NCBI GenBank assembly: GCA_020846775.1 | Contig: JADLDG010000034.1 | Coordinates: forward strand, 1 to 64,000 | DNA: 64,000 nucleotides | Source of the DNA: Nitrospirota bacterium | GTDB taxonomy: Bacteria > Nitrospirota > 9FT-COMBO-42-15 > HDB-SIOI813 | Reading direction: 5' to 3' | Part shown: piece by piece, positions 3,699 through 35,356 of the stretch | Numbering within the stretch: the first letter of the stretch is position 1 | How the letters are laid out: each line of letters begins with the position of its first letter | Made by a program: the position numbers and the translations under genes | The notes under the pieces: generated by a model | Told to the model about the DNA's origin: nothing | Databases searched by the model: none | The model's input: the letters and a program-made list of their open reading frames with translations, nothing else

Positions 3699-3857
3699 TC
3701 AGGAACTAAAGTCGACAGCGTCAGAAGTGGTCTTTTCATTATCCGGACTGTATTCAAGGTGTGAAATTATTTTTTGAATTAGAGAGTTCTTCTCATCTTC
3801 AGTCATTGTAACAAATAGAGGACTCAAACTGAGTGTTTCTTCTATATGATCATCCAA
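3699..3857 (-). CDS. Unlisted microprotein, 52 residues, TTG start
   Basis: Open frame starting with TTG at 3857-3855, preceded by AAGGAG at proper distance (about 3867-3872), ending TGA at 3699. The product begins LDDHIEETLSLSPLFV and is acidic, with a predicted helical middle (TEDEKNSLIQKIISHLEY). I recognise no family. A competing ATG frame behind the same ribosome-binding site stops after seven codons. It lies 38 bases after the next small frame (3896-4036) and 96 bases before the Crp/Fnr gene, all on the same strand, so the three may be one transcript. It fills what otherwise looks like an empty 770-base gap. Confidence 0.45.
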   Translation of the reverse strand: MDDHIEETLSLSPLFVTMTEDEKNSLIQKIISHLEYSPDNEKTTSDAVDFSS

Positions 3858-3895
3858 ACTTTCATCTCCTTAAAAAATACGGTGAACGATCTACA

Positions 3896-4036
3896 TCAGG
3901 CATTACCGGAAAATGGTTGAATATAAAAGGGCACGTCTTTAGTCACACCGACAATCTTTTCAATTATCGCCAAAGTATCCTGAGTCGGCAAATGCATTTC
4001 AACACTTAATATATACGTCCTGATAATTTCATTCAT
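3896..4036 (-). CDS. Unlisted microprotein, 46 residues
   Basis: Frame beginning at ATG 4036 (an in-frame ATG also exists at 4045) and ending TGA at 3896. GGGGG at about 4046-4050 gives normal spacing to the 4036 start. The peptide (MNEIIRTYILSVEMHLPT... ending FSGNA) alternates hydrophobic and polar residues as a soluble alpha/beta peptide would and has no membrane segment. No family recognised. It is the first gene after a sigma-54-like promoter at 4077-4092, whose predicted start point near 4066 leaves a 20-30-base leader. Codon use resembles the neighbours. Expression is inferred only. Confidence 0.42.
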   Translation of the reverse strand: MNEIIRTYILSVEMHLPTQDTLAIIEKIVGVTKDVPFYIQPFSGNA

Positions 4037-4076
4037 GACCTTCATCCCCCAGTCTTAGTTGCATATGGTATTATTT

Positions 4077-4092
4077 TGCATTTTGTATGCCA
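4077..4092 (-). promoter_or_regulatory. Sigma-54-like (-24/-12) promoter for the two microprotein genes
   Basis: On the minus strand the sequence TGGCATACAAAATGCA has the -24 GG and -12 GC separated by exactly ten bases, as required for RpoN promoters, and matches TGGCA and TGCA on either side. The predicted start is near 4066, 20-30 bases before the start of the 46-residue frame. A sigma-70 reading of the same stretch also exists (TTGATA, 17-base spacer, AATAAT), so RpoN dependence is not certain. Two direct copies of GTGTAGAAAT lie 140 and 170 bases upstream, a normal distance for activator sites. A sigma-54 activator gene is in the window at 27797-29239. Confidence 0.4.
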
Positions 4093-4200
4093 TATCAAGA
4101 AAAACAGTTACGTTTGGGCAGCACTCTATAACCTATTGATATTATAGAATATACAAAAATATAGACAGAGACGGATGTCAGGGTTCGTTGAGTTGAGTAC

Positions 4201-4240
4201 GTGTAGAAATGGAAACAAATGTTATAAAGTGTGTAGAAAT
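4201..4240. repeat. Two direct copies of GTGTAGAAAT, 30 bases apart
   Basis: Identical ten-base words at 4201-4210 and 4231-4240, about three helical turns apart, in the spacer between aconitase and the microprotein genes. Their distance from the sigma-54-like promoter at 4077-4092 suits enhancer-type activator sites. No protein can be assigned to them from the sequence. The rest of the 4046-4371 gap holds the aconitase terminator and AT-rich sequence with no further gene that I can support. Confidence 0.4.
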
Positions 4241-4273
4241 CGTATCCTCCATAATAATTGTGTAATTACTACA

Positions 4274-4315
4274 CAAAAAAGATGGGGAACAACTGCTGTG
4301 CAGTTTGTCCCCCAT
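4274..4315 (-). terminator. Rho-independent terminator of the aconitase gene
   Basis: Read on the minus strand, a nearly perfect stem (ATGGGGGACAAACTGC pairing with GCAGTTGTTCCCCAT, one bulge) with a short loop is followed directly by TCTTTTTTG. It lies 57 bases beyond the aconitase stop codon. Stem at 4282-4315, U-tract at 4280-4275. Confidence 0.85.
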
Positions 4316-4371
4316 TCAACATGCATAGAAAGGTACATCAATTGATAACCGCTGGTACTGGTCTTTGCCCT

Positions 4372-6288
4372 CTAAATCATGGCAAGGGCTCCACCAGCCT
4401 TAAGCATAGGGATGTCCTTCTCTGAAAATGCCGGTTTAAGTTTGATCTCTGTTCCTCCATTTACAACCAGAGTAAGCAGCTCAGACGATATGTCAGATGT
4501 ATTCAACGTGACCTTATCTCCCTGCTTAATTTTTCCGTAATCTTCAGGATTGGCAAATGTAAGAGGAAGGATACCAAAATTAATAAGGTTTGCAAGATGT
4601 ATCCTGGCAAATGAGGTTGTAATTACTGCCTTGACCCCGAGAAACATGGGGCAAAGTCCTGCGTGTTCACGACTGGAACCCTGTCCGTAGTTTTCACCCC
4701 CCACAATAAATCCATAACCTCCACTGTCACGCAATGCCTCTGCACGGCTCGCAAATGTAGGGTCAACCTGCACAAATGTTGCCTTGCGTGCGTACTCAGG
4801 AACATTAGACCTGAGCGGCAGGTATTTTCCGGCAGGCTGAATATGATCAGTTGTTATATTGTCTCCAAGATAGAGCAGCACCTCACCAGAGATTTTATCC
4901 GGCAGAGGTCTGAATTCAGGAAGAGGGGCAATATTGGGTCCACGAATAATCTTCACCTGTTTTGCAGCTTCTTCAGTATATGGAGGGATAATCATCCTGT
5001 CATCTATAACCGGAGATGTTATTTTAATCACAGGGGCCTTTCCCAGAGTCCTGGGATCTGTCATTACGGCTGTTAATGCGCATGCCCCTGCAACCTCAGG
5101 ACTAACCAAATATGCCTTAGCCGACTTCGTACCTGTTCTACCGGCGAAATTTCTGTTAAAGGTCCTGACAGTCACTCCACCACTTGGCGGCGCACCGCCC
5201 TGCCCTATACATGGGCCGCAAGTTGCCTCCAGTATCCTGACCCCGGCTGCAATGAGCATGGATAAATGCCCTGACTTCTCAATCTGTTGATAAACAGCAC
5301 GGGATCCGGGAGAAACTGTAACTGAGACATTAGGATTTACGACCTTACCATTTAGTATCTCTGCAAATATTGCCAGATCACGGAAAGAACTATTGGTACA
5401 ACTGCCGACGGCAACCTGGTCAACTTTCATACCGGCAAGTTCTTCTACTGTTTTTACATCTCCCGGACTTGGATCAACAGCCAGCAGCGGGACTAATGAC
5501 GACAGGTCAATTTCTATAGTATCGCTGTAAACAGCATCCTTATCAGCAGACAGAGCTACATACTGATCACCGCGACCCTGACTCTCAAGCCATGCCTTAG
5601 TCACCTCATCACTTGGAAACACTGACGTGGTTGCACCGGTTTCAGCGCCCATATTAGTAATCGTGGCACGTTCAGGAACAGCAAGTGTCGCGACTCCCGG
5701 CCCGGAATATTCAAAGACCTTCCCAACCCCGCCTTTTACACCAACACGCCTTAATAGCTCAAGGATTACATCCTTGGCGGAAACCCATTCAGGCAATTTC
5801 CCTGTAAGCCGAACATTTACAACTTCAGGCATCTTCAGGCCAAACGGCTTCCCCGCCATAGCGAATGCCACGTCAAGACCACCCGCACCTATCGCAATCT
5901 GCCCGACACCTCCTCCGGTAGGGGTATGGCTGTCCGAGCCTAACAGGGTCGTTCCAGGAACTCCGAAACGTTCCATGTGAATCTGGTGACAGATACCATT
6001 ACCAGGACGGGAGAAGTAAATCCCGTGTTTTGCAGCTATGCTCTGGAGAAACAGGTGATCATCAGGGTTCATATAATCCTGCTGTAATGTGTTATGGTCA
6101 ACATAACTTACCGACAGCTTTGTCTTTACCCTTGGTACACCCATAGCCTCAAACTGAAGATATGCCATTGTACCTGTTGCGTCCTGGGTCAACGTCTGAT
6201 CAATCCTGACAGATATTGACTTGCCAGCCTCCATACTGCCGGAGACCAAATGCTCCTGTATGATTTTTTGGGTAAGATTTGCTCCCAT
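4372..6288 (-). CDS. acn: Aconitate hydratase, Aquifex type
   Basis: 638 residues, the length of the short Aquifex-type aconitases (AcnA and AcnB are about 860-900). It isomerises citrate to isocitrate in the TCA cycle through a [4Fe-4S] cluster. The cluster cysteines are visible: GSCTNSS at about residue 295 and ATCGPCIGQGG at about 355-365. Early active-site histidines lie in LLGSDSHTPTGGG (about 115-127), and the swivel domain has YGQGSSREHAGL with the catalytic serine near residue 540. The ATG at 6288 is preceded by AGGAG. The gene stands alone with its own terminator downstream; isocitrate dehydrogenase is encoded 4.3 kb further along the same strand. Confidence 0.95.
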   Translation of the reverse strand: MGANLTQKIIQEHLVSGSMEAGKSISVRIDQTLTQDATGTMAYLQFEAMGVPRVKTKLSVSYVDHNTLQQDYMNPDDHLFLQSIAAKHGIYFSRPGNGICHQIHMERFGVPGTTLLGSDSHTPTGGGVGQIAIGAGGLDVAFAMAGKPFGLKMPEVVNVRLTGKLPEWVSAKDVILELLRRVGVKGGVGKVFEYSGPGVATLAVPERATITNMGAETGATTSVFPSDEVTKAWLESQGRGDQYVALSADKDAVYSDTIEIDLSSLVPLLAVDPSPGDVKTVEELAGMKVDQVAVGSCTNSSFRDLAIFAEILNGKVVNPNVSVTVSPGSRAVYQQIEKSGHLSMLIAAGVRILEATCGPCIGQGGAPPSGGVTVRTFNRNFAGRTGTKSAKAYLVSPEVAGACALTAVMTDPRTLGKAPVIKITSPVIDDRMIIPPYTEEAAKQVKIIRGPNIAPLPEFRPLPDKISGEVLLYLGDNITTDHIQPAGKYLPLRSNVPEYARKATFVQVDPTFASRAEALRDSGGYGFIVGGENYGQGSSREHAGLCPMFLGVKAVITTSFARIHLANLINFGILPLTFANPEDYGKIKQGDKVTLNTSDISSELLTLVVNGGTEIKLKPAFSEKDIPMLKAGGALAMI

Positions 6289-27796: not shown

Positions 27797-29239
27797 CTAA
27801 AGATTTTCTTTCCCAATATCAAGCGCCTTCAGCTTTCTCCACAGCGTAGTTCTGCTCATATTCAGCCTTCTGGCACACTCCAGATAATTCCAGTTGGTCT
27901 CAATAAGGAGACGGATGACAAACTCTCTCTCCAATTCTCTGAGGGGGTCATGTTTATTTATAACCTTATCAATGATGCTCTTGTTTTGAATATCCTTAGG
28001 AAGGTGTTCGGGATTAATAGTCGCCCCATGACATCTGATAACGGCATATTCTATAATATGTTCAAGTTCCCTGATGTTTCCGGGATAATGATACTCCATA
28101 AGAAACTCCATTGCAGCGGGAGAAACATTCCCCACCTTAGCACCCATCTCCGTGTTAAACTTTTCTATAAAATGTTTTAAAAGGAGCGGAATATCATCTT
28201 TTCTTTCCCGCAACGGTGGGACCAGTACAGGCACTACCTTTAGTCTGTAATAAAGGTCTTCCCTGAATTCGCCCTTTTCTACAGCAAGTCTCAGGTCTTT
28301 ATTAGTAGCGGCAATCACCCTGACATCTACCCTTATTGTCTTTGAATCACCAACCCGTTCTAATTCCCCCTCCTGAAGCACCCTTAAGAGTTTTATCTGA
28401 GTATGGAGGGCAACATCTCCGATCTCATCCAGAAAAATGGTCCCCTGATTTGCCAGCTCAAACCTTCCGGTCTTATCTGTTATTGCACCGGTAAAAGCAC
28501 CTTTGACATGCCCGAAGAGTTCACTCTCCAGCAGGCCTTCAGAAAGGACAGCACAGGTTGCCTTAACAAACGGTCTGTTGTTTCTTGGAGAATGCAGATG
28601 TATGGCATTTGCTATTAACTCCTTTCCTGTTCCTGTTTCTCCTTCGATAAGAACAGTTGCCTTTGTAGGGGCTACTTCCCGTATCAACTCATAGACTTCA
28701 TGCATGCGCTGGTCTTTCCCAATGATGTTCTCAAAGGAATACTTATTCTTGAGTTCATTATGCAACTCTTTAATAATCGTAATGTCCCTGAACGTCTCTA
28801 TGCCTCCGATAATTTCATTATTGCCATCCCTGAGCAGAGCCGTATTGATGCTGAGAAAAAGTTTTCGCCCCTTTCTTTCAAAGAAAGTTTCATAGTTATA
28901 GACAGGCTCTCCCGTCTCTAAAGTTGTGTTGATCAGACAACCAATGGTGCAACCCGGATGTGAAATAACCTCATTGCACTTTTTATCACCTATAATGGAC
29001 TCCATGTCCGGCCGCCCTAACATCTCTTCTGCAGCACGGTTGATAAAAAGGATCCGATGGTCCAGCCCTATGACCACTATACCATCTGCGATGCTGTTTA
29101 ATATTGTCTCGCTATTAACGTCAAGATACCGCTGGACACTTGCGGCATTAGGAAGGATACCTGCAATACTATCAAGGATGGCATCGCTTGATATCTTAGA
29201 TGGGCTGTCTTCTCTGTTCATATTACTATTATATGCCAT
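27797..29239 (-). CDS. PAS-domain sigma-54-dependent transcriptional activator
   Basis: 480 residues: a PAS sensor (about 42-158), an AAA+ activator domain (about 170-400) and a Fis-type helix-turn-helix (about 438-478). Walker A GETGTGKE (200-207), the sigma-54 contact loop GAFTGA (247-252) and Walker B FLDE (269-272) are intact. There is no receiver domain, so the signal is sensed by the PAS domain itself; Cys88, Cys97 and Cys101 in it could bind a cofactor or respond to redox state. The neighbouring 60-residue membrane-protein gene, with a -24/-12-like promoter and two upstream palindromes, is the best candidate target. Confidence 0.92.
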   Translation of the reverse strand: MAYNSNMNREDSPSKISSDAILDSIAGILPNAASVQRYLDVNSETILNSIADGIVVIGLDHRILFINRAAEEMLGRPDMESIIGDKKCNEVISHPGCTIGCLINTTLETGEPVYNYETFFERKGRKLFLSINTALLRDGNNEIIGGIETFRDITIIKELHNELKNKYSFENIIGKDQRMHEVYELIREVAPTKATVLIEGETGTGKELIANAIHLHSPRNNRPFVKATCAVLSEGLLESELFGHVKGAFTGAITDKTGRFELANQGTIFLDEIGDVALHTQIKLLRVLQEGELERVGDSKTIRVDVRVIAATNKDLRLAVEKGEFREDLYYRLKVVPVLVPPLRERKDDIPLLLKHFIEKFNTEMGAKVGNVSPAAMEFLMEYHYPGNIRELEHIIEYAVIRCHGATINPEHLPKDIQNKSIIDKVINKHDPLRELEREFVIRLLIETNWNYLECARRLNMSRTTLWRKLKALDIGKENL

Positions 29240-29333: not shown

Positions 29334-29373
29334 AAATAAAAACCCCCCATGAGTGGTATGCTTATGAGGGGCT
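29334..29373 (-). terminator. Rho-independent terminator after the tail-anchored protein gene
   Basis: Minus-strand stem CCCCTCAT pairing with ATGGGGGG around a loop, followed by TTTTTATTTT. It separates the 60-residue protein gene from the sigma-54 activator gene. Confidence 0.65.
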
Positions 29374-29400: not shown

Positions 29401-29583
29401 TTACCAGAGGAGAAAATAGGCGGCAACTAACATCCCTATTGAAATAATTGCACCAACTGAGACACCAGAGATATATAAATCTCTCTTCTCTATATCCACT
29501 TTATTTAATTCTTTTTTTGTCCCGTCCACATGACTGTTGTTGATGTGATTTAAGCCATGATGGAAAGTATGAGTCGTTTCCAT
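29401..29583 (-). CDS. 60-residue tail-anchored membrane protein, unknown
   Basis: Starts at ATG 29583, which has AAGGGGG eight bases upstream; a longer frame from 29637 lacks a site. Residues 1-38 are polar and histidine-rich (THTFHHGLNHINNSHVDG); residues 40-58 form one hydrophobic segment (SGVSVGAIISIGMLVAAYF) ending LLW, so it is a C-terminally anchored protein with its N-terminus probably in the cytoplasm. The clustered histidines could bind metal. It has its own terminator and a sigma-54-like promoter, beside a sigma-54 activator. No family recognised. Confidence 0.7.
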   Translation of the reverse strand: METTHTFHHGLNHINNSHVDGTKKELNKVDIEKRDLYISGVSVGAIISIGMLVAAYFLLW

Positions 29584-29657
29584 GTTAAACACCCCCTTCC
29601 AGAAGTTAATAGACCCTTTTGGGTCCCTCATTTGCATCCCTTATGCTTAATATATAT

Positions 29658-29673
29658 TTCAAAAGGCATGCCA
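29658..29673 (-). promoter_or_regulatory. Sigma-54-like promoter of the tail-anchored protein gene
   Basis: The minus strand reads TGGCATGCCTTTTGAA: TGGCATG and TTGA with the ten-base GG-to-G(C) spacing of RpoN promoters. The -12 dinucleotide is GA instead of GC, which weakens the call. The start would be near 29647, giving a leader of about 64 bases before ATG 29583. Confidence 0.4.
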
Positions 29674-29758
29674 TTTAATAACAAATATTTTTCATGTGTA
29701 ATACATTGATTTCATTAATAAAAACAAGACAAGACAAAAGAGCTAAAAATATGACATC

Positions 29759-29861
29759 GTTTCAATTATGAAACAAATAAGAATAGTACTCCTTAGCATT
29801 ACATTAACTATCAAATAGTTATAGTATTTTTCCAATTCTGAAACATTTTCATATTTGAAAC
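29759..29861. promoter_or_regulatory. Pair of TTTCA-N4-TGAAA palindromes, candidate activator (enhancer) sites
   Basis: GTTTCAATTATGAAAC at 29759-29774 and a second TTTCA-N4-TGAAA at 29847-29860 with centres 87 bases apart (about eight helical turns). They lie about 120 and 205 bases upstream of the predicted sigma-54 start near 29647, a usual place for activator sites. A third overlapping TGAAA-N3-TTTCA adjoins the second. The rest of the 29641-30019 gap is AT-rich, with no gene that I can support. Confidence 0.5.
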
Positions 29862-30019: not shown

Positions 30020-30919
30020 CTATTGACTTGTAAACCTCTCTTCCACATGTTCATCAAAATACTGCAACCAGTAACTAAGCTCCCGTTCAACAGCCTGAAT
30101 CCGTGGTATGCGGAGCGGGTCAAAGGATTTGTGGAATGGAGGGACTGCCGGGCCGCCTGTTACCATCATCACGCCTTTATGCCTGTATGATACACCCTCA
30201 TATGTACCGTTCAGCAGGGTGCTTGTGTCCTTCGGATAAATCCCCATGGGAAGGGAAAGTGATTTGACCTCGTAGCCCGGCACCGCCTCCTGTATCGCCT
30301 TGACAGCAAGCGCAAGCTGACGGCGCACACCTTCGGGGCTCTGTTTTGACAGCGTTGCATGCCATAAGGTGTGATTGCCGATTTCAAAGCCTTTGCGCAC
30401 CAGGTAGCGGAGCTTCTCCTGTGTATATTCAGGCTGGTTAAAAAGCTTATTTGGCGGGTCAGCCGCAGGCAGGACGTAGAAGACTGCCGCTAATCCAAAA
30501 TCGGGATGTTTTGCATGGAATGATTCAAGTATGCCCACTGCACAGTCAGGATCCACCTTATAACCGCTATTTCCATCAGAAAGAAACCTGAGCTGTCCCG
30601 GTGATGAATCATCGAAGGTCAGGATAAGCGGCGTCTTTCCATTCCCAACCCGGATACGGCCTTCCAGAAAATCGTCCATCCGTGTCAGCTGGTAGCCTTT
30701 CTCATAGAACCTCTGCAGGTCTTTCCTGAAATTCTCAGGCGTCCGTGTCCAGCGGGACTCAGGATAGTCAATCTTATGGTATTCAAGGATCATGACCTTG
30801 CCTTTATTATCAGATGGAAGAGATTCAGACATGACTGATGATGGATTAACAGTAGATACAACCTGAATGATAAATATGATACTCAGAATCTTATGAATAA
30901 GATGTGCTCTGATTTTCAC
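30020..30919 (-). CDS. Exported polysaccharide deacetylase family protein
   Basis: 299 residues with a signal peptide (about 1-31) and a NodB-homology domain. The metal/catalytic motifs are LTFDDSSPG (about 97-105) and NHTLWHATL (about 180-188, H-x3-H). Such enzymes remove acetyl groups from cell-surface or peptidoglycan sugars. GTG start at 30919 overlaps the res stop codon by four bases (GTGA), so it is translated with the restriction subunit, an unusual partner. Strand, spacing and the lack of a promoter gap support one operon mod-res-deacetylase. A biological link is unknown; it may be chance read-through into a chromosomal gene at the island edge. Confidence 0.85.
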   Translation of the reverse strand: MKIRAHLIHKILSIIFIIQVVSTVNPSSVMSESLPSDNKGKVMILEYHKIDYPESRWTRTPENFRKDLQRFYEKGYQLTRMDDFLEGRIRVGNGKTPLILTFDDSSPGQLRFLSDGNSGYKVDPDCAVGILESFHAKHPDFGLAAVFYVLPAADPPNKLFNQPEYTQEKLRYLVRKGFEIGNHTLWHATLSKQSPEGVRRQLALAVKAIQEAVPGYEVKSLSLPMGIYPKDTSTLLNGTYEGVSYRHKGVMMVTGGPAVPPFHKSFDPLRIPRIQAVERELSYWLQYFDEHVEERFTSQ

Positions 30920-33582
30920 GTCTCACATGCCCTCACCAAATAATTGAAACTCATGTTAGCCTGAACAATGTTATGTGGTATAAGGACATACTTCCACTGC
31001 TTGCCGCTGTTTTGCGACGTGAACTCAGTGGCATATTTGCAGTGTTGCAGAGCCGCCTGACTTTTTTCTTGAACATCCTGGTCATCTATGGCGCCCTCTT
31101 TCTTTGTCTCCACCATATAAATAGTGTCTACCGTCTCAACGATAAAGTCAGGATTGTATTGCTTGGAGTTATGCCTCCAGTAGATGTGAAACTGCCTCTG
31201 AGCCGGTCTCATCCATTTTAATACCGCCGCTTCATTTTCCAGGATGATGGCAAAGTCCTTTTCTGTCTTGGAGTCGAATTTATAAAGATTATGACAGGCC
31301 TTTCTGAATCCGCAGAAAACCTTGCCCGGGATTGCACTTGTTGGAGTTATGGTATCGGTATAATGATGTATGCTGTCCTTTGTATATTTGGAGAAATTGT
31401 GTTCTTCAATTTTTGTAAAAGGTTTTACAACCGGTTGTTCAAAGCCTGTCGTCTCACAATAGAAATGCACCATTAACTGGGAATAGATATACCGTCCTAT
31501 CTCTTTCTTGTGATATTGGACGACATTTAAAATCTGATCAGCTCCCAGCCAGGACTGAAACTTCTCAATGGCCTGTCCAGTCAACTTGAACAACAGCTCC
31601 GACTGTTCATCGTAGTTTATTTCAGGGTAGTTCATAAGCTCATTCACAATGATACGTTCCGGGACATCAGGAATAATTCTGCCCCTACCTATAACAATGT
31701 CAACACTATTTTCCTGCTCCCTCAGTTTCCTGATGAGAATCTCCTCTGAGACAGGTTGATAATTCAGGTTGTTCGTGTCCAGATCAAAATCCCTGAAACC
31801 CGATCTTATCTCACCGGATTGCTGGATGGTTATTCTCGGGATTTCAATAATGTTCTTTGCAAACTCATCCACAATCATTTCATAGGTATTCTCTGCATCC
31901 TTTATCATTTCTGCAGCAAACATTACCTGCTGCGGCGAGCTTGCCAGGCTCTCCCTTATCTTCTCAATGGCCATCTCCTTAATTTCTTCCTTCTTCAATC
32001 CATTAACACTTGTCACTTTATTGTTAAGCTCCGGAAGCATGTAGAGAATGGCCTTTTGAACATCGAGACTTATCTGCGCCCGCTGTTTCTCTTCCGGCCC
32101 TGCAATGGAGTCAATTACTTTCTGCTGCTCCTCAATCTTTTTCTCAACCAATGGGACGGACGTAATGACTTCTTTAGTATGGCTTAATTCTTCCGCATCA
32201 ATGGTAATGATATTTTCTTTTCTGATGATTGAATCGGGCCTGTTAGCAGCATCAATAATCTCCTGAAACCTGTCATGGGCAACAATAGTGAGCTTGTCAA
32301 CCTTGTCATGACCTGTCCTCTTTCCATAAGGAAGGCGCAGTCCCCTGCCGATCGTCTGTTCTCTCAGAGTAGTTGAGGCCGCCGTCCTCAAAGGAATTAT
32401 GGTATAGAGGTTTGTAACATCCCACCCCTCTTTGAGCATATTCACATGAATAACAATCTCTATCCTGTTGTCAGGACTTTCCAAAGAGAGCAGACGATCA
32501 ATGTTCTCATCTTTCTCATCCCCGCTCTGATTCGAATGGATTTCCATAACCTTATCCTCATAGTGCCCCTCAAAGAAAGCGCTTGATACTATAAGCTCTC
32601 TTAACCTGCCGGCATGTTCCGTATCTTTGGCAACCACCAGCACAAATGGCTTTACTACCGGCATTCTGTGATCCCGTGCAAAGATATCCAAAGCAACCTT
32701 TGTATCCTCATGGATCCGGATACCGTCTTCAAGCTTGATCCTGTCCAAATCCTCAGGTGAATACTGGCCCGGATCAAAATCTTTGCGGGTAGCCACTGCC
32801 GGCTCTTTAACAAAGCCGTCCCGGATAGCCTTAGCAAGAGAATATTCATATACCACATTCTTAAATTTTACCGCCCCTCCGCTTCGTTCAACCTGCGGGG
32901 TTGCCGTAAGCTCCAGACCTAAAATGGGGTTCAACTCATTGATAACCTCCATGCCCCTGTCTGCACGGTAGTGATGGGATTCGTCCATAAGCAGGACAAG
33001 GTCATCAAGGCCGGAGAGGTAGTTGAAATACGAGTATCCCAAATATTCCGACAGCCTTTTGATACGAGGGAGCTTCCCGCCCCTCATCTCTGAGTTTATC
33101 TTGGAGATATTAAAGACATTAATCCTTATCTCCTGCTCCCTGAAAAGGTCACCAATGGAGTTGTAATTATCGCCGGTAACGATTACAGGATTGTTGTGGA
33201 CAAACTCTCCGATCCCCTGAAATACATACTTGGGACAGGTGGTATTGGAAAAATCCACAATGAGCTTATTGTAAATAGTCAGGTTCGGGGCAAGGACAAA
33301 GAAGTTTCTAAAACCCTTGGCAAGGTAGAGATAAGCGATAAATGCCCCCATAAGCCGTGTCTTGCCGACACCGGTTGCCAGTGCGAAGCAGATAGAAGGG
33401 AAGCTCCTTTCAAAATCGGTACAGACAGGATAGGCGCTCCTGACCTTTTCAAGCTCTGCAGATAAATCGCAGTTTTTTTGAAGGGCTAAACTGTCCATAA
33501 GCCCTGCCAGTATATTCAGGCTCCCCTCCTGCGGAGGCCGCAGGCTCAGGCGGTTTTTAATGGAGCTGGCAATGCGGTTCAT
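30916..33582 (-). CDS. res: Type III restriction endonuclease subunit (Res)
   Basis: 888 residues. SF2 helicase motor: Walker A ATGVGKT (69-75), MDESHHYR (about 199-206), ELTATP, then the second RecA lobe ending GRGLRLPYGKRTG. The C-terminal nuclease carries the PD-(D/E)xK pattern NPDFIVE...YMVETKK (about 813-831). Complexed with Mod it translocates on DNA and cuts between two head-to-head unmethylated sites. It follows mod by 103 bases. Upstream of the ATG lies a 12-base tandem duplication (AAGAGGGTAATA on the coding strand) that contains the only ribosome-binding-like sequence. All motifs look intact. Confidence 0.93.
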   Translation of the reverse strand: MNRIASSIKNRLSLRPPQEGSLNILAGLMDSLALQKNCDLSAELEKVRSAYPVCTDFERSFPSICFALATGVGKTRLMGAFIAYLYLAKGFRNFFVLAPNLTIYNKLIVDFSNTTCPKYVFQGIGEFVHNNPVIVTGDNYNSIGDLFREQEIRINVFNISKINSEMRGGKLPRIKRLSEYLGYSYFNYLSGLDDLVLLMDESHHYRADRGMEVINELNPILGLELTATPQVERSGGAVKFKNVVYEYSLAKAIRDGFVKEPAVATRKDFDPGQYSPEDLDRIKLEDGIRIHEDTKVALDIFARDHRMPVVKPFVLVVAKDTEHAGRLRELIVSSAFFEGHYEDKVMEIHSNQSGDEKDENIDRLLSLESPDNRIEIVIHVNMLKEGWDVTNLYTIIPLRTAASTTLREQTIGRGLRLPYGKRTGHDKVDKLTIVAHDRFQEIIDAANRPDSIIRKENIITIDAEELSHTKEVITSVPLVEKKIEEQQKVIDSIAGPEEKQRAQISLDVQKAILYMLPELNNKVTSVNGLKKEEIKEMAIEKIRESLASSPQQVMFAAEMIKDAENTYEMIVDEFAKNIIEIPRITIQQSGEIRSGFRDFDLDTNNLNYQPVSEEILIRKLREQENSVDIVIGRGRIIPDVPERIIVNELMNYPEINYDEQSELLFKLTGQAIEKFQSWLGADQILNVVQYHKKEIGRYIYSQLMVHFYCETTGFEQPVVKPFTKIEEHNFSKYTKDSIHHYTDTITPTSAIPGKVFCGFRKACHNLYKFDSKTEKDFAIILENEAAVLKWMRPAQRQFHIYWRHNSKQYNPDFIVETVDTIYMVETKKEGAIDDQDVQEKSQAALQHCKYATEFTSQNSGKQWKYVLIPHNIVQANMSFNYLVRACET

Positions 33583-33587
33583 TTAGT

Positions 33588-33611
33588 TATTACCCTCTTT
33601 ATTACCCTCTT
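33588..33611. repeat. Tandem 12-base duplication TATTACCCTCTT upstream of res
   Basis: Two exact head-to-tail copies (33588-33599, 33600-33611) with a third degenerate one at 33619-33630. On the coding strand each copy contains AAGAGGG, so copy number would change the position or number of ribosome-binding sites for res. Confidence 0.65.
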
Positions 33612-33685
33612 TTAGAGGTAATACCCTATTAAAAACTGGATGGTCTTCATGACTAGTCATCCCCGCTAATTTATTCTTCCCGGAC

Positions 33686-35356
33686 TTATTCTTCATTAAT
33701 CTCTTCTTCAACAAAAAGCTCCCCCTGTGTCTTGTCTTTAACCTTGCGTACAGGTTTCTGCTGTACCTTAACCGGCTCAGGTTGCGGTTCATTTTCATCA
33801 ACCGGCATATTGACAATATTCAGGCTGTAATCCTCTTTCCCAAATTCACAGCGGCCCAGGAGCATCTTTGGGATTTTCCTTACGGTAATGTTCAGGTGTC
33901 TGCTCTCACAAGCCTTTGAGAAGGACTTGCAGCAGATCAGCAGGCTCTGATCAGGCTGCATCTCGTCATGAATCTTATCGAGAAACTCAACAGTGACGAA
34001 GTTTGTGGTTGTAAAGATATAATCCTTCTCCGTTGACCTCCCCTGCTTCCAGTAGATCTGCTCATCAGGGGAGTATTTAAAGCTCTCATGCTTTGCCATT
34101 GCAGCGGCCAGCATGTCGGCATTATACCGTTCATCAATCACCCAGCTGCCGTGTTTATCCTCTTTAAGCAGACTTGGGGCAAGATAATAATATTTGAAAC
34201 CACCACCGCCCTGCCAGGTTACGGCCTTGGATATTCCACCCTGATCTGTACCATCAACAACCTTTTTCAAACGCGGCAGGCAATGGGTGTGGCAGTGCTC
34301 ACCAAGCTCAATGCCTATCCAACTGCGCTTCATCTTATGGGCAACGGCGGCGGAAGTGCCGGAGCCAAGAAAGGAGTCAAGGACAAGATCGCCCTCGTTG
34401 GTAGCTAAGGTAAGAATACGCTGGATAAGGCGTTCAGGTTTGGGGGTAGAGAAAACATCCTCGCTATTAAATGTCTTTATCTCACGCTTTGCCTCTTGAT
34501 TATCACCAACATCAGTTCTGTGCCAAATAGTTTTAGAGACAGTTCCTACTTGTACTTCCGTTAAAAAACGTTTGATTGAGGGCACACTATTACCATCTCG
34601 TCCAAACCAAATCCTATTATCTTTGACCATCTCTTCATATTTTTCTTTTGAAATAACCCAACATCTACTTTCTGGAGGATTAACAATGCGACCAGAAGAC
34701 AGGGTAACAGGATAGTCCGTTGCAGCTGTATATGTTTTTACTGACATATCACTCGATTTCCACAGGCCTCTCGGATCATTGTCAGGGTTTTTATAGCGGG
34801 CATTCATCTCCTCTGTTCTCGGCAAGAGATTCGGTCTCCATGTCTCTTTGTTCTTTGCATATACCAGAATATGGTCGTGGCTATCAGACAACCATTTTGC
34901 ATCATTCTGCGGAGAATATTTCTTTTCCCATATAACATTATTTACAAAATTCTTTCTTCCAAAAACCTCATCACACAACACCTTCAGATAATGACTCTCA
35001 TCGTCATCAATAGAAATCCAGAGTGTTCCGTCATTGCTCAACAGCCTGTGCAGCATCTCAATCCTCGGCCTTATCAGACTCAGCCATATTGAATGCTCCA
35101 GCCCGTCATCATAATGCTCAAAGGCATTGCCGGTATTATAAGGCGGATCAATATAGACACACTTAATCTTCCCTGCAAAATCCTGCTCAAGCGCCTTGAG
35201 GGCAAGGAGATTGTCACCCTGAATAAGCATATTATCAGTATTCCTGTCACCGAAGGACTTTTCAGTGTCTTCAATAAGAATCCTCGGCTCCAGCTTCGGC
35301 TGGTTCTCCTTGCCTATCCATGTTAGTTCGAGTTTTTGGTTTTTGTTGGACATCAT
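33686..35356 (-). CDS. mod: Type III DNA methyltransferase (Mod)
   Basis: 556 residues, a beta-class amino-methyltransferase. Motif IV DPPYNTG is at 70-76, followed by the variable target-recognition region (about 120-300) and motif I DSFLGSGTSAAVA (about 327-339) for SAM binding, the order typical of Mod. It methylates adenine in a short asymmetric site, providing modification and site recognition for the Res complex. A second in-frame ATG follows directly at 35353. The GGAGG used for its start is contributed by the end of the decayed frame upstream. The C-terminus ends in an acidic-lysine tail (QGELFVEEEINEE). Confidence 0.93.
   Translation of the reverse strand: MMSNKNQKLELTWIGKENQPKLEPRILIEDTEKSFGDRNTDNMLIQGDNLLALKALEQDFAGKIKCVYIDPPYNTGNAFEHYDDGLEHSIWLSLIRPRIEMLHRLLSNDGTLWISIDDDESHYLKVLCDEVFGRKNFVNNVIWEKKYSPQNDAKWLSDSHDHILVYAKNKETWRPNLLPRTEEMNARYKNPDNDPRGLWKSSDMSVKTYTAATDYPVTLSSGRIVNPPESRCWVISKEKYEEMVKDNRIWFGRDGNSVPSIKRFLTEVQVGTVSKTIWHRTDVGDNQEAKREIKTFNSEDVFSTPKPERLIQRILTLATNEGDLVLDSFLGSGTSAAVAHKMKRSWIGIELGEHCHTHCLPRLKKVVDGTDQGGISKAVTWQGGGGFKYYYLAPSLLKEDKHGSWVIDERYNADMLAAAMAKHESFKYSPDEQIYWKQGRSTEKDYIFTTTNFVTVEFLDKIHDEMQPDQSLLICCKSFSKACESRHLNITVRKIPKMLLGRCEFGKEDYSLNIVNMPVDENEPQPEPVKVQQKPVRKVKDKTQGELFVEEEINEE

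Follow-up and report, generated by a model that had tools for sequence, protein, structure and literature searches.

One-component sigma-54 activator with PAS-domain cysteines and a conserved palindrome array beside a membrane microprotein gene

The microprotein gene, its activator and the region between promoter and palindromes

The window analysed here, 64,000 nucleotides in length (G000:C34:1-64000), belongs to a Nitrospirota assembly of 2.73 Mb that is 99.6% complete. Its minus strand carries, in this order, a palindrome array, a sigma-54-type promoter, a 60-codon open reading frame (ORF), a terminator and the gene for a 480-residue activator. Upstream of this unit, at 30916-35356, lie genes for a type III restriction-like helicase/nuclease and an N6/N4 methylase.

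The ORF (29401-29583 including the stop codon, minus strand) encodes a 60-residue microprotein (METTHT...YFLLW), a gene call based on a homologue, pN/pS and hydropathy. An earlier sequence-only reading had described a tail-anchored, His-rich small membrane protein, and this description holds: the peptide has five histidines, a His-rich N-terminus and a single C-terminal transmembrane (TM) span at residues of about 36-60 by hydropathy, with a predicted topology that places the N-terminus inside and the C-terminus outside. A ribosome-binding site, GGAAGGGGG, lies at 29592..29600 (minus strand), with AAGGAGG at the equivalent place in the congeneric genome G001. An alternative start at 29637, giving 78 residues, is unlikely because a stop codon stands just upstream of the equivalent start in G001 and because both genomes have GGTGTTTAA(A/C)ATG. 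The only homologue, 44% identical, is in G001; small-protein searches of 99 relatives and 396 phylum genomes returned no other real homologue of this kind, the remaining matches being fragments, mostly within larger frames. For the window gene, pN is 0.35 and pS 0.68. Pfam and NCBIfam hold no family for the peptide and Rfam none for the RNA, and no significant Pfam match, CydX and other small oxidase subunit families included, was obtained with the window peptide and nine related peptides. The terminator attributed to the small gene was recovered at 29337..29372 (minus strand) by folding, as a G+C-rich hairpin of 9 bp with a U run behind it (-22.1 kcal/mol, z -2.1); a simple terminator scan had found nothing there. 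G001 has an equivalent hairpin and T run.

The activator gene (27797..29239, minus strand) was assigned from Pfam, orthologues and a tree. Its product comprises a PAS domain (residues 44-154, 28778..29110; PF00989/PF13426), an AAA+ sigma-54 interaction domain with GAFTGA (residues 172-338, 28226..28726; PF00158, E 7e-71) and a Fis-type helix-turn-helix (HTH; residues 433-472, 27824..27943; PF02954) whose recognition helix region, SRTTLWRKLK, is conserved across enhancer-binding proteins (EBPs) with a cysteine-bearing PAS domain (Cys-PAS); all three are encoded on the minus strand. The GAFTGA-bearing AAA+ domain and C-terminal Fis HTH give it the composition of a bacterial EBP. Pfam detected no Response_reg match, and with a PAS domain and no receiver the protein is of the one-component type, not the two-component NtrC type. 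The PAS cysteines to which the sequence-only reading drew attention, residues 88, 97 and 101, form a motif C88-x5-H-x2-C97-x3-C101 (28937..28978, minus strand) that conservation marks as a candidate metal/Fe-S or thiol redox site. Orthologues 52-84% identical occur in many genomes, and a maximum-likelihood tree places the window activator with those of G001, of G005 and G008 and of Deltaproteobacteria-labelled genomes in a 12-row clade with support of 100/99. C-x5-H-x2-C-x3-C is invariant in all clade members checked; the Cys triad also occurs in sister groups, whereas the histidine is specific to this clade. The activator is neither NorR (it has a PAS rather than a GAF domain, and scores 351 bits with the NCBIfam NorR model against a cut-off of 476) nor NifA (384 bits with the equivalog against 529). 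The window genome has a single RpoN.

The TGGCATG-N4-TTGA element reported upstream of the small gene is present as TGGCATGCCTTTTGA at 29659..29673 (minus strand), a -24/-12 promoter with GG-N10-GA spacing whose assignment rests on 24 aligned promoters and the presence of RpoN. An IHF-like site, AATCAATGTATTA, with an exact WATCARNNNNTTR match to the consensus from PMC3897727, lies at -38 (29699..29711, minus strand). Further upstream on the same strand are three putative EBP palindromes, identified comparatively: proximal TTTCATAATTGAAA (-100, 29760..29773; exact), middle TTTCAGAATTGGAA (-170, 29830..29843; one mismatch) and distal TTTCAAATATGAAA (-187, 29847..29860; exact). The sequence-only reading had seen two TTTCA-N4-TGAAA palindromes, and both are exact, with starts 87 bp apart; it had overlooked the middle palindrome and the IHF-like site. 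Within the 260 bp before the promoter there are four palindromes with at most one mismatch against 0.06 expected, a number that 3000 dinucleotide shuffles never reached. Genome-wide there are 17 exact palindromes, compared with two occurrences of a reversed control pattern, and only the copies at the small-gene locus form a composite with a promoter. That composite (palindrome, 69-99 bp, promoter core) is found once in the 2.7 Mb genome, at the small gene, and its reversed control not at all. With a -24/-12 promoter, upstream activator sites and an RpoN in the genome, the region has the predicted make-up of a sigma-54-dependent promoter unit. The caa3-type oxidases of the same genome, and other heme-copper oxidase loci, were considered as targets and rejected, being without the palindrome/promoter unit.

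Conservation of the control region in other genomes

We used the PAS region as query against 84,980 species genomes and added further loci by pattern and profile searches; nearly all genomes compared are metagenome-assembled (MAGs). The scan recovered activator orthologues in Deltaproteobacteria-labelled MAGs and in one Nitrospinota MAG. Altogether 24 control regions were tabulated, 21 of them (20 genomes) before microprotein genes and three before a NirK-like gene. Each adjoins an orthologous EBP of one clade, apart from a single case in which the contig ends before the EBP. Each microprotein locus encodes, beside the orthologous activator, between one and four single-span microproteins that are 25-60 residues long and unannotated. 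The search for co-occurrence of activator and peptide that had been recommended thus found activator, array, promoter and microprotein gene(s) together at 21 loci, in line with the earlier proposal of a dedicated signal-response unit with a small membrane protein as its output.

Spacing of the sites is held to a few bases, and the remaining control-region sequence has diverged. Counted from the TGG in the -24 element, the distal palindrome lies at about -177, the middle at about -160 (16-18 bp from the distal in most regions) and the proximal at about -91; in the window genus the set has moved about 10 bp outward. Most control regions have an IHF-like site at -30 (-38 in the window genus). Across 16 control regions we counted 39 palindromes with at most one mismatch against 0.94 expected (maximum four in 300 shuffles), and seven exact IHF-consensus matches against 0.54 in shuffles. 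Some regions have individual sites that are degenerate or absent, for example L144, L151, L152 and L339. Loss of the palindromes or promoter where the gene pair persists had been named beforehand as the observation that would count against the unit, and the arrangement is kept in the 24 regions. A further worry, that the GA change at -12 might harm an RpoN promoter, proved unfounded, since 10 of the 24 promoters read TTGA (TTGT in 12, ATGC in two); at the position after TTG, 12 promoters have T, 10 have A and two have C.

The closest comparison is with G001, where palindromes lie at -188, -171 and -100 together with TGGCACAGTTATTGA, between diverged flanks. The G001 activator next to the microprotein gene is 83% identical to that of the window and is truncated after about residue 370 by a transposase insertion (L026 13215-13300). 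A second, C-terminal activator piece, 94.6% identical over a 280 bp overlap, terminates a contig (L072 end).

At each Deltaproteobacteria-labelled locus the output amounts to between one and four ORFs, 25-47 codons long and equipped with ribosome-binding sites, that each encode a single hydrophobic span. They fall into at least two families, class I (consensus MK....L....F.LG..AL...LLQ.GRG) and class II (.E..AH.A......I); class II keeps a Glu, and the fourth residue after it is often His/Asn/Tyr. Pooled dN/dS values of 0.19-0.45 indicate purifying selection, although resemblance between the families is slight. In G452 a single 27-residue peptide is divergent from its activator. No homology between the window microprotein and those of the other loci is detectable; position, size and a single span are what they have in common. 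Class II members also occur without a nearby activator or composite site, as at least five tandem copies at L341 6627-7613 (G396:C9) and as a lone copy at L342 5810-5902, so this family exists outside the activator's regulon. Conserved neighbours of the Deltaproteobacteria-labelled loci (L143 5377-5622, L149 6566-6790 and equivalents) are a DUF1858 gene, a CapA-like gene and RND efflux genes; DUF1858 is a family named after its association with the hybrid cluster protein.

Comparison of the loci establishes that, in two lineages far apart from each other, the gene pair is accompanied by the same domain content, palindrome array, putative bend site, predicted promoter and terminator.

Other targets and candidate functions

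The output of the regulator differs elsewhere. The control region of G005, of G008 and of the Nitrospinota MAG precedes genes for a NirK-like multicopper oxidase with two domains and for two cytochromes c; the activator gene comes after them. The NirK-like protein has the NirK model as its best match, below the cut-off (165 vs 296 bits). In G005 and G008 a heme-copper oxidase operon, whose oxidase falls into no class, is divergent and has its own promoter-like TGGYATGAATTATGC. Because the control region would drive the NirK-like oxidase and cytochromes c, with the heme-copper oxidase divergent, these neighbours circumstantially favour a nitrite/NO or redox signal. The idea that a small membrane protein is the only visible output holds for the window genome, where the exact composite is unique at that stringency. 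Elsewhere several tandem microproteins are frequent, and in sister lineages the output is the NirK-like oxidase with cytochromes c instead.

Sister EBPs with similar recognition helices have a TTTCA-N4-TGAAA-like palindrome nearby and different neighbour genes. A second Cys-PAS group, in G001, G003, G005, G008 and G007, has an TTCATTAATGAAAC-type site over its own stop codon (L066 7144, L062 7986, L065 5529, L068 1704 and L070 3736, respectively), which precedes a small Cys-rich (Zn-ribbon-like) gene and 2-oxoacid:ferredoxin oxidoreductase-like genes; this second activator is present in G001, and a full-length copy was not found for the window genome. At L258, L259, L265, L268 and L269, Cys-PAS activators and the same palindrome stand beside orp-like Fe-S (NifX/MinD-ferredoxin) and DsrE/TusA genes. 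Among the sequences compared, the palindrome follows the HTH while the target differs from clade to clade, a pattern suggesting that one DNA motif may be reused across the whole Cys-PAS activator family. Heme-copper oxidase operons in G011 (L093 around 3790-4425) and G020 (L099 around 560-860) have sigma-54-like promoters with repeated ACAAAATTGTA-type palindromes; given this different A+T palindrome, they probably answer to another dedicated activator.

We propose that the one-component activator, with its cysteine-bearing PAS sensor, would bind the three TTTCA-N4-TGAAA palindromes, that an IHF-type DNA bend would help it to open the sigma-54 promoter of the adjacent microprotein gene, and that the terminator would confine the transcript to that gene. 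The PAS Cys/His motif may hold an Fe-S cluster or another redox/NO-responsive centre, and the induced single-span protein might protect or tune the respiratory chain in the membrane when the cell is exposed to nitrite/NO or redox stress. As a whole, this account, from Cys-PAS activator through palindromes and IHF bend to a microprotein with a redox/NO-linked respiratory role, is the best explanation we can offer, and we consider it probable. Its parts differ in strength. Action of the window activator through the window array on the window promoter is well supported by the comparative evidence; sensing of NO or redox state by a metal/thiol centre in the PAS domain is less so, and tuning or protection of the respiratory membrane by the peptide least of all. 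We infer both signal and peptide function, and the unit is most likely redox- or NO-responsive.

Alternatively, the microproteins could serve a respiratory enzyme (a terminal oxidase, NO reductase or similar) as small subunits or as assembly factors, with the unit remodelling that enzyme upon a change in NO, nitrite or redox state. Single-span proteins of this length, 25-60 residues, are typical among oxidase accessory subunits, the class II residues described above would suit such a role, and sister EBPs with the same sites control the NirK-like oxidase, cytochromes c and probably the heme-copper oxidase. We nevertheless hold this as a tenable but somewhat doubtful reading, as no microprotein gene was found adjoining an oxidase gene, Pfam gave no match to CydX or other small-subunit families, and the microproteins are diverse and tandem, unlike one fixed subunit. 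A Psp-like response to envelope or proton-motive-force stress, in which membrane or redox damage would trigger the activator and the hydrophobic microproteins would either stabilise the membrane or depolarise it on purpose, appears unlikely: the activator has a cysteine PAS sensor, no PspA-type partner is nearby, and sister targets are redox enzymes, not envelope genes. It is kept alive by two related genomes (G399, L232/L264; G404, L248/L263) in which a VTT/DedA-type membrane protein gene is preceded by the palindrome and sigma-54 composite, and it also accords with products that are all membrane peptides and with the RND efflux genes adjoining the Deltaproteobacteria-labelled loci.

That the sigma-54 transcript acts as a regulatory RNA, the small ORF not being the product that counts, would fit a predicted transcript that is short and terminated, and D. 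vulgaris EBPs with such targets are on record (PMC4641369). The idea is made very improbable by the quality of the ribosome-binding sites, by codons under purifying selection, by the presence of a TM span at all loci despite divergent nucleotide sequence and by the lack of an Rfam match. An ordinary activator beside an unrelated small ORF, with the palindromes an A+T-rich coincidence, could draw only on the whole-window count, in which the one-mismatch palindrome is at chance level (6 vs 5.0); local clustering, the conserved spacing in 24 regions and the excess of palindromes in 16 of them already refute this at the level of comparison, and we give it almost no credence.

Returning to the preferred redox/NO-linked account, we would go further only tentatively, somewhat short of an even bet: tandem single-span microproteins may form a new class of dedicated, sometimes sole, effectors of a metal/thiol-PAS sigma-54 activator sensing NO or redox state, a regulator that swaps to denitrification-type enzymes in sister lineages. 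The conserved unit itself shows a whole promoter/enhancer machine, usual for large operons, retained over long evolution for one or a few peptides of 25-60 residues. Peptides of this size tend to escape gene finders, and the control-region signature locates them in otherwise silent intergenic space.

Comparison with known systems

The Psp system pairs a sigma-54 EBP, PspF, with the small membrane proteins PspB-D and PspG. The window unit likewise combines a sigma-54 EBP with a small membrane protein, but it has a sensor domain, no PspA/B/C homologues alongside and no sequence match. Three enhancer sites precede norVW. The window activator resembles NorR in being a sigma-54 activator with three such sites and in having nearest orthologues with NirK-like and heme-copper oxidase genes next to them. 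The sensor of NorR is a GAF domain (PMC2941729), whereas the window activator has a PAS domain with a C/H motif and another palindrome. The regulatory logic here, of EBP palindromes, IHF and sigma-54, is of a known kind; a dedicated microprotein output in this form is undescribed in the literature searched.

The OrpR protein of D. vulgaris reportedly senses redox state through a [4Fe-4S] PAS cluster. OrpR (DVU2106) is a one-component EBP without a receiver that has few target operons, the target adjoining the regulator (PMC3897727, PMC4641369), and at orp the EBP sites and the IHF sites between them and the sigma-54 promoters are experimentally required (PMC3897727). The window unit also has an EBP without a receiver, upstream palindromes and, before the sigma-54 promoter, a predicted IHF site, the exact WATCARNNNNTTR at -38; EBPs beside orp-like genes in the compared genomes share the Cys spacing and palindrome of the window EBP. 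The window EBP nevertheless belongs to a clade apart from those EBPs, has an extra His in its Cys motif and carries GAFTGA where OrpR has GAFTDA (PMC4641369). Its target is a membrane microprotein gene rather than an orp operon, orp-type neighbours belonging to other EBPs, whereas the orp operons encode soluble proteins of Fe-S/Mrp type with a link to cell division. Four further D. vulgaris EBPs, DVU0653, DVU0679, DVU1419 and DVU2359, have ncRNA targets (PMC4641369). DVU2359-type EBPs resemble the window activator in that they have a single target, a short transcript from a place where no protein gene is annotated (PMC4641369); window-type transcripts differ in that they appear to encode conserved membrane microproteins. 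Certain EBP targets now listed as non-coding RNA may therefore merit re-inspection for peptides, and the unit ties an OrpR-like, redox-type sensor family to membrane microproteins and nitrite/NO chemistry.
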